Origin: Methanosarcina barkeri str. Wiesmoor
Lineage (GTDB): Archaea; Halobacteriota; Methanosarcinia; Methanosarcinales; Methanosarcinaceae
Assembly: GCF_000969985.1 (NCBI RefSeq)
Contig: NZ_CP009526.1
Span: forward strand, 4,154,001-4,218,000
Length of the DNA stretch: 64,000 nt
Reading direction: 5' to 3'
Positions 9,947-26,424 of this stretch are shown in pieces; the stretch's first letter is position 1; each line of letters opens with the position of its first letter. Made by a program: the position numbers and the translations under genes. The notes under the pieces are model-generated. The model saw only the letters and a list, made by a program, of their open reading frames with translations, was not told the origin of the DNA and made no database searches.

Positions 9947-11086
9947 GTGAATCGAGTATCCATAGTCCACTGCCCTGATTATTCTGATACAGAAAAAGCA
10001 ATAGCTGAGGCTCTGGAGCTCCTTGGAGGTCTTGAGAATATAATCCATCCCGGTGACAGCGTACTCCTGAAACCGAATATCCTTGCGGCTGTTTCTCCTG
10101 AAAATGCAGTAACCACTCAGCCTTCAGTTGTAGCGTCAATGTGCAAGTTCGTGCTTCAGGCCAGAGGAAGACCTGTAGTAGGGGACGGAGCCGGAATCTC
10201 AAGGCCAGGGGCCACCTCAAAAGCCCTGAAAGCTTCAGGTATAGAAGAAGCCGCCCGAAAAGCCGGAGCAAAGGTAGTAAACTTCGAAACCGCAGGCTTT
10301 ACCCTGGTAGATGTCCCTGACCCCCTGCAATTCCGCAAACTATACATTGCAAACCCTGTCCTTGAAGCCGATTTAGTTATCTCTCTCCCAAAATTAAAAA
10401 CTCATGAACTTACTTACTACACAGGTGCAGTTAAGAACTTTTTCGGAACTCTCCCATTAAGGTGCCGAAAAGAGGCACACCTCCTTGGAAAAAGAGACCT
10501 TTTTGGTGAAGCTGTTGCTGACCTGTATTCGGTTGTCAGGCCCAGCTTTGCAGTTATGGATGGGGTAATAAGCATGGAAGGAAACGGGCCTTCTCATGGA
10601 AATCCCGTAAATTCCGGAGTAATTTTGGCAAGTCAGGACTGTGTCTCTCTGGATATTGTCGCTGCGGAAATGATAGGTTTTGACCCCTTCAAAATTCCCA
10701 CGACTGCAGGAGCCATGAAAAAAGGACTTGGAAACCAGTGCCCTGTTGTGGTCGGAACCCCGTTAAAAGAAGTTAAAATGAAATTCAAACCATCCAGTGG
10801 AGGAGTCAGTACAGCCCCTTCCTTTCTTACCCGCACCCTTGGCAAATACTATAAGATTTATCCCAGGATTAACAGAAGAAAATGCACTCACTGCGGAGCT
10901 TGCTATTTAAACTGCTCTCCCCACGCTATTGAACAGCTTGAAGACGGGAGCTTTAAGATCAATGAGGAAAAGTGCATTCTGTGTTATTGCTGTCGCGAAC
11001 TGTGTCCCAGCAATGCGGTAGAAATTAAAAAATCATTTCTTGCAAAGCTTTTAACAGAAAAAGACAACCTAATCCGTAAAACCTGA
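9947..11086 (+). CDS. DUF362 protein with C-terminal 2[4Fe-4S] ferredoxin domain
   Basis: A 379-residue cytosolic protein. Residues 1-290 form a DUF362 domain (LLKPNILAAVSPENAVTT near the start, then GAVKNFFGTLP and AVMDGVISMEGNGPSHGNP). Residues 310-360 carry two CxxCxxCxxxC clusters: Cys313/316/319/323 and Cys343/346/349/353. It is presumably an electron-transfer or iron-sulphur handling protein; no member of this type has a firmly known reaction to my knowledge. The start is GTG at 9947; no ATG begins before the conserved VSIVHC strand. It stands alone between repeats. Confidence 0.85.
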   Translation: MNRVSIVHCPDYSDTEKAIAEALELLGGLENIIHPGDSVLLKPNILAAVSPENAVTTQPSVVASMCKFVLQARGRPVVGDGAGISRPGATSKALKASGIEEAARKAGAKVVNFETAGFTLVDVPDPLQFRKLYIANPVLEADLVISLPKLKTHELTYYTGAVKNFFGTLPLRCRKEAHLLGKRDLFGEAVADLYSVVRPSFAVMDGVISMEGNGPSHGNPVNSGVILASQDCVSLDIVAAEMIGFDPFKIPTTAGAMKKGLGNQCPVVVGTPLKEVKMKFKPSSGGVSTAPSFLTRTLGKYYKIYPRINRRKCTHCGACYLNCSPHAIEQLEDGSFKINEEKCILCYCCRELCPSNAVEIKKSFLAKLLTEKDNLIRKT

Positions 11087-20562: not shown

Positions 20563-21339
20563 TTATTGGAAATATATTACATGAAGGATGTACTCTGTAT
20601 TTGGAGCTGCATCCATAATACATTCATAAGACGCGGTTGGTGGGGTACTCGAAAGATAACCAGTATATATTCCTACCGATGTGTAGTAACCAGCAAGTTC
20701 TCCATATTTGGCCATGAGTTTATCTTGAGTAGTTCTCTCACCATCATATAGAATGACAAGATCTTTTGTATCATCAGGAAAATAGGTATGGTCTTGAAAA
20801 TTGGTCAGGAAGAGTTTAAACTTAGGGTTATAGCTTTGAATCTGTGTTAACCAGAGATCACGCTCCTTGTTGCTGGCATGATTAGGGTTTCCTGTTAATT
20901 TCCACTCCATATCAATATTTACACCTATGACACTTTTGTGATGACCGTATCTCGAAAGTACAATATCGATCAAATCAGCTACATCAACCTCATTAGGTTG
21001 AATTGAAAGAATTACCTTCAATCCGTCTCTATCGAATCTATCCAGATAAGGCTCAACTTTGTCAGTCTGATTATAACTGTAAATTTTTCCATTTTTTTCA
21101 AAAGGAAAAGGCACATATGTGAGTTTACTTTCATGTGCCTGAGCGACGACCAAGTCAACTACTGCAGATTTACCTCCAAACTGTCTCGCAGCTTCAGACC
21201 AGTCTTCAGCAGGCTTCGAAAAATTACAATTATTCCAGACTCCTTGGAAACATGCTGGTCGTGGAGGAGTGACTGAGGCAAAATAAAACAGAATTATGAA
21301 AAAAATTAAGAGTGTCGATCCCAATAAAATGTATACCAT
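20563..21339 (-). CDS. Membrane-anchored glycosidase-like (TIM-barrel) protein
   Basis: 258 residues. One N-terminal membrane helix (residues 3-24) anchors a roughly 230-residue outer domain. The domain shows alternating strands and helices of a TIM barrel: GVWNNCNFSKPAEDW, VVDLVVAQAHESKLTYVPFP, GLKVILSIQPNEVDVADLIDIVL, SVIGVNIDMEWKLTGNPNHA, FLTNFQDHTYFPDD, VGIYTGYLSS. The IDMEW stretch recalls the acidic catalytic strand of GH18-like enzymes. It is about 70% identical by eye to the secreted protein at 23812-24684. It lies 14 bp after the synthase gene on the same strand, so it probably acts on the polymer made there, like the hydrolase part of PgaB. Confidence 0.75.
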   Translation of the reverse strand: MVYILLGSTLLIFFIILFYFASVTPPRPACFQGVWNNCNFSKPAEDWSEAARQFGGKSAVVDLVVAQAHESKLTYVPFPFEKNGKIYSYNQTDKVEPYLDRFDRDGLKVILSIQPNEVDVADLIDIVLSRYGHHKSVIGVNIDMEWKLTGNPNHASNKERDLWLTQIQSYNPKFKLFLTNFQDHTYFPDDTKDLVILYDGERTTQDKLMAKYGELAGYYTSVGIYTGYLSSTPPTASYECIMDAAPNTEYILHVIYFQ

Positions 21340-21353
21340 ACTGTCTTTCTTAA

Positions 21354-23438
21354 TTATCTCACCTCAATAATCCGCGGACCGAATTGTATTTTCAACCCTC
21401 TCCCTGTTAGATAGCACAGGTAAAGGTAACTGATCGTTACAACTTTAATTGTTGAGTAAACCAAAACATAAGGAATCAGCATTGGCAGTAATTTTTTGTC
21501 TTTTGAAAAAAGTGAAGCAGTGAATACGATGAATATCAGCACAGGAAGAATGGAGTATGAGAGCCCACGCAGAGATATCAGCAGGAGATTATCGTATTGA
21601 AGAAGCAAATAGGGCAGAAACATAACCAGAATAATGGAACAAACTCCAATGATGTAGCCCAAGTAATTGAGTACCATCCATGCATTCCTCATTGCCCAGT
21701 GTCTATGAAGCCGCCATACCTGGAGATTGCCGTACCACCACCGTTTCCTTTGCTTATACCATGCCCTGAACGTTTCAGGTGCATTCGTGTAAACTTTGGC
21801 TTTTGGTTCTCGGATAATTTTCATGGATTTTTTAAGGGCTTTTATCGTAAAATCTGCATCCTCAACAATCGTCTCGTCACTGAATCGAACAGATTCACAT
21901 ACCTCGCGCTTGACAGCAGTGAGCGGGCCGGGACAAACAAGAATATTACCACTTAAACTCTGAAGGTACCGAGTTATCTCCTGTTCTATAAGATACTCAA
22001 TCATCTGGAAGTACTTCATAATTCGCTTTTTTCCCTGACTATTATGGATAAAAACATTTCCTGCTACTATCTGCGCGTCATTATTAGTGATGAGACATTC
22101 TACTAATGAACTCACTGCATTGGCTGACATGTACGAATCAGAGTCCGTAAAGATTAGAATATCCCCTTTTGCATCTTCAATTGCTCGATTGAGAGCATTG
22201 GCCTTTCCTACATTCGCCTTAAGATCAATAAATTTCACCGGATATTTTAAAACGATCTCTGCAGTCCGATCAGTGGAACCATCATTTACAACTATTACTT
22301 CCATTTCACCGTTATAATCCTGATTAAGGATCGACTCAAGGCATGAACCTATCGTTTTTTCCTCATCATATGCCGGAACTATAATAGAAACCAATCCATG
22401 ATACCCAGTATCCTGAATATTCTGAGGTTGACAGCTATTTTTACTCCTTCTTATGTTCCAACCGGATAAAAATTTCCATATAACAAAAAACGAAAGTGGT
22501 AGCAATGAAGTTATGATAAAGAACCAGAAATAGACTACCATAATTTTGTTGACTTCAAGACTTCCAATGGCAGGGTTACCACCTTTCCATGTCCCCACAG
22601 GAATAATTGCAAGTACAACTCTTCCTACAGATTTATATTTTGTCATCTGAGATATGCCAGTGATCACGTCTTTTGGGGTATTTACCTCAACATCATCCAT
22701 TCTGACGGTTATATTTTTTTCGTCTGTTGAAGACAGATAGTCAATGAGGAACTGGTTCACATATGGATTCCAATCCATTGCATGGAGAACAATAGTCTGA
22801 GGATGATCTTCCCTGATTTTTGCAGATGCCGCCTGGAATCGAGGATCATCAAAACTTTCCATTGTACGCCAATTCCATGTATATTCATCTATGTGCGTTC
22901 CATTTGTTTTCAGGGAAGGCAGTCTTGTTGCAACTTTCGTGCTCTCTATTGCCTGTCTCACTGATGGATCTGTCGGTATTCCATAGATATCAAAAGGGGA
23001 AATGAACACTCTCGGGACGAGTCCGGCCTTTTCAAAGACCAGCTTTCCTTTTTCAACATTTTCTTTTGCCTGGAAAGGCTTCAGGGTGGAATAGTTTTCA
23101 TGTTCCCATCCGTGGACCCCCATAATAACTCCCCTATCCTGTGCGTTTCTCAGCGCATTGAGAAGTTCCGGCTCATCCAAGATAGTTATTCTTCCGAACA
23201 TAGCATCGTTTAAGTGATTGACTTCTGTACAAAGGAATACTCCTAGAGGAAGGGTAATTAATATCGCCAAAAAGAATGAGATAAGTGGTACCTTTTTTTT
23301 AAAAATTAGCTTATTAGACAAACCAGGGAATTTTTTTTCGATCATCCCTGCCTCCTTTTGAGTAAACCTGACATTAGATTGATTTACCACGTAATTTTCT
23401 TGAGATTTTTCAAAATCCGCAAGCTGTTTCTTGCTCAC
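21354..23438 (-). CDS. Membrane GT2 polysaccharide synthase with permuted deacetylase-like domain
   Basis: About 694 residues. After a membrane helix (about 50-70) an outer domain contains, in this order, MGVHGWEHENYS, a PSPF-like FISPFDIYGI, IVLHAMDW, then ITVRMDDVEVNT and VVLAIIPVG. These are DUF2334/NodB deacetylase motifs with the normally first DD strand moved to the end. Two membrane helices lead to a cytosolic GT2 domain: VSIIVPAYDEEKTI, VVNDGSTDRT, FTDSDSYMS, VEDADFT and QRKRWWYG (the QxxRW motif of processive synthases). Four C-terminal helices follow. Likely makes and deacetylates a beta-linked amino-sugar polymer. The GTG at 23438, with GGGGGATC upstream, is chosen; the frame extends to a TTG at 23489. 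Confidence 0.85.
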   Translation of the reverse strand: MSKKQLADFEKSQENYVVNQSNVRFTQKEAGMIEKKFPGLSNKLIFKKKVPLISFFLAILITLPLGVFLCTEVNHLNDAMFGRITILDEPELLNALRNAQDRGVIMGVHGWEHENYSTLKPFQAKENVEKGKLVFEKAGLVPRVFISPFDIYGIPTDPSVRQAIESTKVATRLPSLKTNGTHIDEYTWNWRTMESFDDPRFQAASAKIREDHPQTIVLHAMDWNPYVNQFLIDYLSSTDEKNITVRMDDVEVNTPKDVITGISQMTKYKSVGRVVLAIIPVGTWKGGNPAIGSLEVNKIMVVYFWFFIITSLLPLSFFVIWKFLSGWNIRRSKNSCQPQNIQDTGYHGLVSIIVPAYDEEKTIGSCLESILNQDYNGEMEVIVVNDGSTDRTAEIVLKYPVKFIDLKANVGKANALNRAIEDAKGDILIFTDSDSYMSANAVSSLVECLITNNDAQIVAGNVFIHNSQGKKRIMKYFQMIEYLIEQEITRYLQSLSGNILVCPGPLTAVKREVCESVRFSDETIVEDADFTIKALKKSMKIIREPKAKVYTNAPETFRAWYKQRKRWWYGNLQVWRLHRHWAMRNAWMVLNYLGYIIGVCSIILVMFLPYLLLQYDNLLLISLRGLSYSILPVLIFIVFTASLFSKDKKLLPMLIPYVLVYSTIKVVTISYLYLCYLTGRGLKIQFGPRIIEVR

Positions 23439-23489
23439 CCATGATCCCCCATAAGAAAAGCCCAATATTAAATTGAGATATAGAATCAA

Positions 23490-23811: not shown

Positions 23812-24684
23812 TCAGTCATCTATTGCGTGCAAGATATACTTCGTATTCGGGGCTGCATTCATAATGTTTTCATTAGATGCTGTTCGGGGAGTATTTGAAG
23901 AATAACCTGTGTATATTCCAACTGAGGTATAATGACTTGCAAGATCCTGGTATTCTTTCAGGATCTCATTCTGAGTACCTTCGCCATCGTACAGGATAAA
24001 AAGATCTTTTGTGTCATCAGGGAAATAGGTATGGTCTTGAAAATTGGTCAGGAAAAGTTTATACTCAGAGTTATAACTTTGAATCTTGGTCAACCAGAAA
24101 TCACGCTCCTTGTTGCTGGCATGGTTCGGGTTTCCTGTTAATTTCCACTCCATATCAACATTTACACCAATAACACTCTTATGATGGCTATATCTCGAAA
24201 GTACAATATCAATCAAATCAGCTACATCAGCCCCATTAGGCTGAATTGAAAGGATAACTTTCAAGCCTTCATCATCGAATCTGTCGAGGTAAGGTTCAAC
24301 TTTGTCGGTCTCGCCATCACTGTAAATGTATCCCTTCTTTTCAAAAGGAAATGGCAAGTATGCGAGCTTGTTTGCATGCGCTTGAGTAACGACCAGGTCG
24401 ACCACACCATCTTCACCTCCAAATTTCTTGGCAGCTTCAGACCAGTCTCCAGCAGGTTTTGAAAAATCACAATTATTCCAGACACCTTTCAAAGGCCCAT
24501 TTGCCAATATTATACTATCTGTCGATGCCTCGTTATTTGTAAGTATTTTATTTGCTTCGGCATTTTTTTGAGTGACGTGGTCAGGTACAACAGCCTTGTT
24601 AATGGTTGAACCTAATGCAGCCGGCGCGGTTGTTAAAATAAGGCATGTTACCAGGAATAGGGTTCCCAGCTTTCTTTTTAGCAT
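23812..24684 (-). CDS. Secreted glycosidase-like (TIM-barrel) protein
   Basis: 290 residues with a classic signal peptide (KRKLGTLFLVTCLILTTAPAALG, cut near residue 26) and a 40-residue linker. The same domain as in 20563-21339 follows: GVWNNCDFSKPAGDW, VVDLVVTQAHANKLAYLPFP, VILSIQPNGADVADLIDIVL, VIGVNVDMEWKLTGNPNHA and VGIYTGYSSN. It is the exported version of the membrane-anchored paralogue. The two flank the synthase gene, which supports a joint role in trimming or releasing an extracellular polymer. The family name is not certain; no biochemical function is proven by sequence. Confidence 0.75.
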   Translation of the reverse strand: MLKRKLGTLFLVTCLILTTAPAALGSTINKAVVPDHVTQKNAEANKILTNNEASTDSIILANGPLKGVWNNCDFSKPAGDWSEAAKKFGGEDGVVDLVVTQAHANKLAYLPFPFEKKGYIYSDGETDKVEPYLDRFDDEGLKVILSIQPNGADVADLIDIVLSRYSHHKSVIGVNVDMEWKLTGNPNHASNKERDFWLTKIQSYNSEYKLFLTNFQDHTYFPDDTKDLFILYDGEGTQNEILKEYQDLASHYTSVGIYTGYSSNTPRTASNENIMNAAPNTKYILHAIDD

Positions 24685-26016: not shown

Positions 26017-26424
26017 TCAGGCAGGAGATTCCTTGTTCATGATATAAGCAACCATTTCAGGATCGATTTTGTTTTCCCTTGAAACTTTTGCTTCAATATC
26101 TTCATTGGATTTACCTTCGATTCTCATTTCTTTTATTCTTTCAATAACCGAAGATGGAACGGTGTAGTATTCGTTTATATCCTTTCTGTGGCCCCAGACA
26201 TCACCTTCGAGAAGCTGGATTTTTTGCAGTTCAAGGAACATCTCTATGGACTTTGAGATTGTGCCTAGGTAGGATTTCGGTAACTGAATTACTTCAATCT
26301 TAGGGCAGGTTTCAACCAGTCCAAATACATCCTTGTTCGAAGGCCTGAAAGCCAGGTGAACAATGCGTTCATTAGGATTCAATGTAAAGATTTCTTCTCT
26401 TGAGCTAACTACTCTGATTTTCAT
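26017..26424 (-). CDS. DUF1699 family protein
   Basis: 135 residues. MKIRVVSSREEIFTLNPNER and VHLAFRPSNKDVFGLV are, in my memory, the hallmark of DUF1699, a small cytosolic family of Methanosarcinales. The C-terminal part has a helix-rich segment with KEMRIEGKSNEDIEAKVSRE, resembling a helix-turn-helix, and ends with MVAYIMNKE. The start ATG has GGGGGG 6-7 nt upstream. Function unknown; a DNA- or RNA-binding role is possible. The MITE copy A sits only 20 bp past its stop, so the element may supply the 3' end of its mRNA. Confidence 0.75.
   Translation of the reverse strand: MKIRVVSSREEIFTLNPNERIVHLAFRPSNKDVFGLVETCPKIEVIQLPKSYLGTISKSIEMFLELQKIQLLEGDVWGHRKDINEYYTVPSSVIERIKEMRIEGKSNEDIEAKVSRENKIDPEMVAYIMNKESPA

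Follow-up and report, generated by a model that had tools for sequence, protein, structure and literature searches.

A putative bifunctional exopolysaccharide synthase of Methanosarcina with a circularly permuted DUF2334/CE4-like deacetylase domain

Analysis of a 64,000-nucleotide stretch of the genome of Methanosarcina barkeri str. Wiesmoor (the window) revealed a gene that probably encodes a bifunctional archaeal exopolysaccharide synthase. Judging from sequence comparisons, a GT2 core is combined in this protein with a circularly permuted, putatively active deacetylase domain, located in the loop between transmembrane helices TM1 and TM2. The gene is represented by a single uninterrupted open reading frame encoding a membrane protein of Methanosarcina (Table 1). 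The GTG codon at 23438 was preferred as the start over the TTG codon at 23489, because the reading frame of an 88%-identical orthologue starts at the same residue.

Table 1. Features of the synthase gene and its neighbours (positions in the window; residues numbered from the GTG start)
Feature	Position	Strand	Description
Synthase CDS	21354..23438	-	694 aa from GTG; TM1 / permuted DUF2334/CE4-like domain / TM2 / PgaC/IcaA-like GT2 / C-terminal TM helices
TM1	23226..23291	-	Residues about 50-71 (hydropathy signal about 48-71); basic segment before it
Circularly permuted deacetylase domain (strongly supported)	22584..23186	-	Residues about 85-285; profile matches and joint alignment
MT2 HGWEHE (109-114)	23097..23114	-	HGWxHE invariant in 12 homologues; aligns with DUF2334 HGYTH
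MT3 FISPF (145-149)	22992..23006	-	Counterpart of DUF2334 FIPP
Putative MT4 EYTWNW (185-190)	22869..22886	-	EYTWxW invariant; weak match to DUF2334 F-x-x-W region
MT5 IVLHAMDWN (216-224)	22767..22793	-	His column common to standard DUF2334 after rotation
MT1 VRMDDV (245-250)	22689..22706	-	Shifted to the domain's C-terminal end; R, D and D are invariant columns once the sequence is rotated; the C-terminal piece matches DUF2334 2-43 in an orthologue
Strand 2 VVLAIIP (274-280)	22599..22619	-	Domain cut directly after this strand
TM2	22470..22538	-	Residues about 301-323; hydropathy; PgaC homology begins here
GT2 catalytic domain	21684..22394	-	PF00535 5.5e-35
C-terminal TM helices	21423..21683	-	Hydropathy
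Downstream gene	20563..21339	-	258 aa, membrane anchor at the N-terminus; separated from the synthase gene by 14 bp
Upstream paralogue, same family	23812..24684	-	290 aa, signal peptide

The synthase part of the protein contains the motifs of processive GT2 enzymes, namely, DSDS (residues 432–435), VEDAD (525–529) and QRKRW (563–567), and, according to hydropathy, the GT2 domain is flanked by TM helices on both sides, as in processive GT2 synthases. The top NCBIfam model is that of PgaC/IcaA (TIGR03937), with 145.5 bits, which is below the equivalog cut-off of 422.3; NodC is also among the best-scoring models, and both PgaC/IcaA and NodC are GlcNAc synthases. In the BLASTP comparison with PgaC of Escherichia coli, the match starts at residue 302, which corresponds to TM2 of PgaC itself, and continues onward with 28% identity. 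Since the homology to PgaC begins at TM2 and the TM1–TM2 loop of E. coli PgaC is short, the deacetylase domain occupies the site of this loop. Basic segments are located before TM1 and after TM2, as expected by the positive-inside rule for a domain outside the cell, and the domain is predicted to be extracytoplasmic. An earlier note on this DNA had placed a deacetylase-type domain in the same chain as a GT2 synthase, with membrane helices at both of its new ends; the fusion is confirmed by matches to DUF2334, above the cut-off, and to PF00535, and the two helices, TM1 and TM2, were found by hydropathy where the note had placed them.

The standard order of motifs in CE4 enzymes is MT1 (DD), MT2 (HxxxH), MT3, MT4 and MT5 (PMC5855634). 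In the window protein, the order is MT2, MT3, putative MT4, MT5, MT1 and strand 2: GVHGWEHE occupies residues 107–114, FISPFD 145–150, IVLHAMDW 216–223, VRMDDVEVNT 245–254 and VVLAIIPVG 274–282. The order and positions reported earlier for GVHGWEHE, FISPFD, VLHAMDW, VRMDDVEVNT and VVLAIIPVG agree with these when numbered from the GTG at 23438.

The Pfam family DUF2334 (PF10096) was detected with 37.9–41.8 bits against a curated cut-off of 26. In the native order, the match comprises only positions 46–125 of the 203 positions of the profile, at residues 83–149, and the MT1 strand, which comes first in the standard order, is the last in the window protein. Likewise, in the orthologues tested, the best DUF2334 stretch in the native order begins at profile position 46, whereas after rotation of the sequence one DUF2334 stretch starting from profile position 2 (2–124 to 2–130) was obtained for all four of them. 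In the hhalign comparison with standard-order archaeal DUF2334 proteins, the native profile gave two out-of-order matches, T43–138 followed by T3–51, with the best score of 78.1 (E 2e-11), and the rotated profile gave one match across T3–138 with a score of 100.4 (E 6e-15). The rotation scan showed a peak in the form of a plateau that includes the MT5–MT1 junction; when the MT5 segment was tested by profile on its own, no correct match was obtained. In the joint alignment of five permuted proteins, after rotation, with seven standard ones, R-x-D-D, P of IIP, H-G-x-x-H, F of MT3 and His of MT5 are invariant.

The C-terminal piece, comprising MT1 and strand 2, is weakly recognized when taken alone: in one orthologue it matched positions 2–43 of the DUF2334 profile (15.4 bits, E 0.014), and no match to DUF2334 was found in the profile search for the corresponding piece of the window protein. 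Such weakness could be expected if no true permutation existed and a standard domain had been broken, its first strands lost, with an RMDD sequence occurring near TM2 by chance. This explanation is very improbable, as the C-terminal piece matches the correct segment of the profile in the correct register, the R, D, D and P columns are shared without exception by the permuted and standard proteins, and the score of the real piece exceeds those of all its column-shuffled versions (n = 30, hhalign scores 78–89, all below 100.4).

Accordingly, the assignment of the domain to the DUF2334/CE4-like type with a circular permutation between strands 2 and 3 is strongly supported by the profile and alignment data. 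The permuted order cannot be attributed to errors in sequencing or assembly, because all 12 homologues share it, including the most distant, with about 45% identity along the entire chain. The earlier description of the region as exactly the standard domain cut before its third strand and rejoined end to start holds with respect to the permutation, which is upheld by rotation and by the shuffled controls; the word ‘exactly’ does not hold, as the short last strand, which follows the MT5 helix in standard DUF2334 proteins, is missing from the permuted proteins or merged with the MT1 strand. The AlphaFold model of the domain (residues 72–300, 4 sequences) had a mean pLDDT of 34.2 and a pTM of 0.32, and Foldseek matches to it were spurious.

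The motifs of the CE4 metal site, D248 D249 and H109 H113, are present in the window protein, aligned with those of standard members. By homology, D249, H109 and H113 are putative metal ligands, D248 is the putative base and H219 is the putative acid. In comparison with the CE4 consensus, which is RxPY for MT3, DxxD(W/Y) for MT4 and I(V/I)LxHD for MT5, the permuted domain contains FISP without arginine, a tentative MT4 and the histidine of MT5. The classical arginine of MT3, which activates the base in CE4 enzymes, is not conserved in the permuted domain. PelA is an active deacetylase that also lacks the MT3 arginine, and a residue located two positions before the base was proposed as its substitute (PMC12022489). 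In the window protein, this PelA-like position, two residues before the base, is occupied by R246, invariant in both the permuted and the DUF2334 sets.

The divergent MT4 and the absence of the classical arginine from MT3 are the features that would be expected if the permuted CE4-like barrel had lost catalysis and had the role of guiding the polymer or of clamping it by binding. An inactive barrel is unlikely, given that PelA is active with a residue at the R246 position in place of the MT3 arginine, and that the putative catalytic and motif residues, including both aspartates, both metal-site histidines, the MT5 histidine and the MT1 arginine, are invariant across the 12 homologues. The dN/dS ratio is 0.13–0.19 for the deacetylase domain and 0.04–0.14 for the GT2 domain, and these values indicate that the deacetylase domain is under purifying selection. 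A putatively active deacetylase therefore remains the preferred interpretation.

The permuted synthase is represented by 12 copies in 11 of the 31 Methanosarcina genomes, with the same order of motifs in all of them. Outside the genus, no permuted synthase was found among 393 genomes of Halobacteriota; the search of 384 genomes of the phylum with a profile of the junction also revealed none outside Methanosarcina, the weak matches with E values of 0.016–0.06 being not credible. No permuted relative was found in the plasmids and phages searched, and no relatives were found in the viral contigs scanned. The remaining DUF2334/CE4-like proteins of Methanosarcina, where the sequence was read, have the standard order. 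Thus, the occurrence of the same architecture in other archaea, raised in the earlier note, was established within the genus and not beyond it in the phylum sample. Two of the copies are broken: in genome G028, the gene is interrupted by a transposase-like reading frame (L082, 6701–8296), and in genome G008 it is split by a frameshift (L078, near 10918–10936). Some lineages may be able to do without the gene; alternatively, the frameshift could be a sequence error.

The genes on either side of the synthase gene in the window belong to one family, characterized by the motif VIGVNxDMEWKLTG. The downstream gene of this family adjoins the synthase gene in the window and in genomes G010, G023, G024, G003 and G008, and in genome G006 a gene of the family comes after what remains of another copy of the synthase gene, close to the contig end. 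No fitting family in Pfam or NCBIfam and no sequence match in PDB were found for these proteins. Apart from Methanosarcina, the family was detected in a single genome of the phylum sample (G143); there, a stretch homologous to it (E 2e-20) is fused to a standard-order DUF2334 domain in a chain (L094) that also contains CARDB and dockerin domains. Intact genes of the family are present in eight Methanosarcina genomes, seven of which carry the synthase (Fisher p = 0.0009, with related genomes treated as independent); in the eighth, G025, the gene is located at the contig edge. The AlphaFold model of the family (8 sequences; pLDDT 47, pTM 0.47) contains, with moderate confidence, a core of alternating helices and strands, and its comparison with PDB gave no trustworthy match. 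These proteins represent an undescribed extracellular family, suspected to be hydrolases, possibly of the (beta/alpha) type. Decayed remnants of genes of this family, with no detectable synthase remnant nearby, are present in genomes G020 (L130) and G013 (L129 and L132), which suggests loss of the cluster.

Glycoside hydrolase genes occur near the synthase gene in other genomes. A gene of the chitosanase family GH46 is located within about 3 kb of the synthase gene in genomes G001 and G006. Genes of this family were found in 3 of the 31 genomes, all of which carry the synthase (p = 0.037, with shared ancestry ignored), and no GH46 gene is present in the genome to which the window belongs. Six GH46 genes were found in genome G003, four of them clustered in tandem (C1:4420421-4426867; L084, L087). 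GH16-like genes are located near the synthase gene in genomes G026 and G028; the G028 protein has no Pfam match and was assigned by its similarity to that of G026. Among other neighbours, a DUF1699 gene (PF08004) is located upstream in the window, at 26017–26424, and its homologue is also found close upstream of the synthase gene in loci L077 and L079. The synthase gene of genome G001 is adjoined by a gene of a 943-aa PKD protein (L083, 4296–7124), in which TVDDVE...YIIPSS resembles the piece comprising MT1 and strand 2. Possibly, this is another deacetylase-like protein, of the standard order; no Pfam deacetylase match was found for it.

According to the proposed mechanism, the cytosolic GT2 domain would polymerise an N-acetylated sugar, most likely GlcNAc, and thread the growing polymer through the membrane, while the outside domain, acting as a metal-dependent de-N-acetylase, would partly deacetylate the chain as it emerges. 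Neighbouring secreted or anchored proteins would probably trim the polymer; this role is proposed for the undescribed family in the window and for GH46 chitosanases or GH16-like proteins elsewhere. The proximity of GH46 genes to that of the synthase, seen in two further species, suggests a chitosan-like product.

The same architecture might instead serve another N-acetylated polymer, methanochondroitin (GlcA-GalNAc-GalNAc) or a polymer of GalNAc, rather than a poly-GlcNAc or chitosan-like one. This is a possible reading with a minor share of the probability. The score of the synthase far under the PgaC cut-off is compatible with it, as are the apparent genes of UDP-sugar dehydrogenase and epimerase, recognized by eye, that adjoin one carrier locus, and the genes for methanochondroitin synthesis have not yet been identified (PMC12369344). 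It agrees poorly with the limitation of the carriers to 11 of the 31 genomes, with the chitosanase genes near the synthase in two species, and with the inclusion of the GlcNAc synthases PgaC/IcaA and NodC among the best NCBIfam models.

The position of the cut may also be of importance. The catalytic face of a (beta/alpha) barrel comprises the loops that follow its strands. With the cut after strand 2, the domain would thus be attached by this face, and its active site would be directed towards the membrane exit. It is tentatively suggested, as a possibility rather than an expectation, that the permutation is functional, that is, that the tether at the catalytic face makes the domain a co-extrusion deacetylase, the protein is an archaeal synthase of the chitosan type and the flanking genes encode a new family of polymer-cleaving proteins. 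These proteins provide a natural test of whether a modifying domain meets the nascent polymer in a way set by the face at which it is tethered. Aggregation and surface polymers are important for Methanosarcina, and the genes for the main polymer are still unknown (PMC12369344). If the deacetylase is active, the genes described here would identify the set responsible for a partly deacetylated (cationic) polymer, hitherto unsuspected, at the surface of some Methanosarcina, with synthesis and putative deacetylation united in one archaeal chain.

The combination of a deacetylase and a GT2 synthase in one chain is not new. The plasmid-encoded protein WP_047804880.1 of Kocuria rosea (L138), annotated as ‘bifunctional polysaccharide deacetylase/glycosyltransferase family 2’, is organized as TM1-NodB-TM2-GT2, which is the same TM-deacetylase-TM-GT2 layout as that of the window protein. 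It differs in that its deacetylase is of the NodB type (CE4 proper) in the standard order, whereas that of the window protein is of the DUF2334 type and permuted; with its standard termini, the Kocuria domain would be tethered from the opposite face. A chitinase gene adjoins the Kocuria gene, a link to hydrolases similar to that suggested for the window protein by its neighbours. A reading frame of Novosphingobium (L139) combines, as recognized by eye, GH18-like, NodB and GT2 domains in one chain, also in the standard order. Both proteins resemble the window protein in that the deacetylase would face the outside of the membrane and the GT2 part is of the processive type. On haloarchaeal plasmids (Halorussus, Natrinema and Halorubrum; n = 3), a DUF2334 gene overlaps a GT2 gene by 4–8 bp, but the products are two unfused proteins with the standard order. 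In the tree of GT2 domains, the permuted synthases are not clearly grouped with either haloarchaeal or bacterial fusion proteins (relevant support 0.48–0.82). PgaC, IcaA and NodC have the same GT2 motifs and TM layout as the window protein without the deacetylase insert. Deacetylases joined to other partners are represented by PelA (CE21 with GH166), in which the partner is a hydrolase (PMC12022489), and by the G143 protein, in which a standard-order DUF2334 domain is joined to a domain of the neighbour family; neither chain contains a synthase.

Circular permutation is not new in the CE4 superfamily either, since PgaB and IcaB are circularly permuted CE4 enzymes cut in Loop 5 (PMC5855634). 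These PNAG deacetylases resemble the window protein in being CE4-like and permuted and in having a synthase of the PgaC/IcaA type as a partner, as in the pga locus of E. coli. In the sequence of E. coli PgaB, the order of residues is H55, D114–D115 and H184–H189, corresponding to MT5-MT1-MT2, where H55 is presumably the histidine of MT5. The window protein does not have the arrangement of the PgaB/IcaB permuted subfamily, a Loop 5 cut with MT5 placed before MT1: its domain is cut after strand 2, and it is fused to the synthase, whereas PgaB is a separate, unfused protein. No description of a permuted DUF2334-GT2 protein was found in the open-access literature searched, the coverage of which is incomplete. 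The window protein and its homologues would be the second case of circular permutation among polymer-modifying CE4-like enzymes, with a different cut and, as before, with a synthase of the PgaC type as partner. Fusions of a deacetylase with GT2 and permutation in CE4 deacetylases were both known before; the cut point, the archaeal host and the fusion of the permuted domain to a synthase are new.
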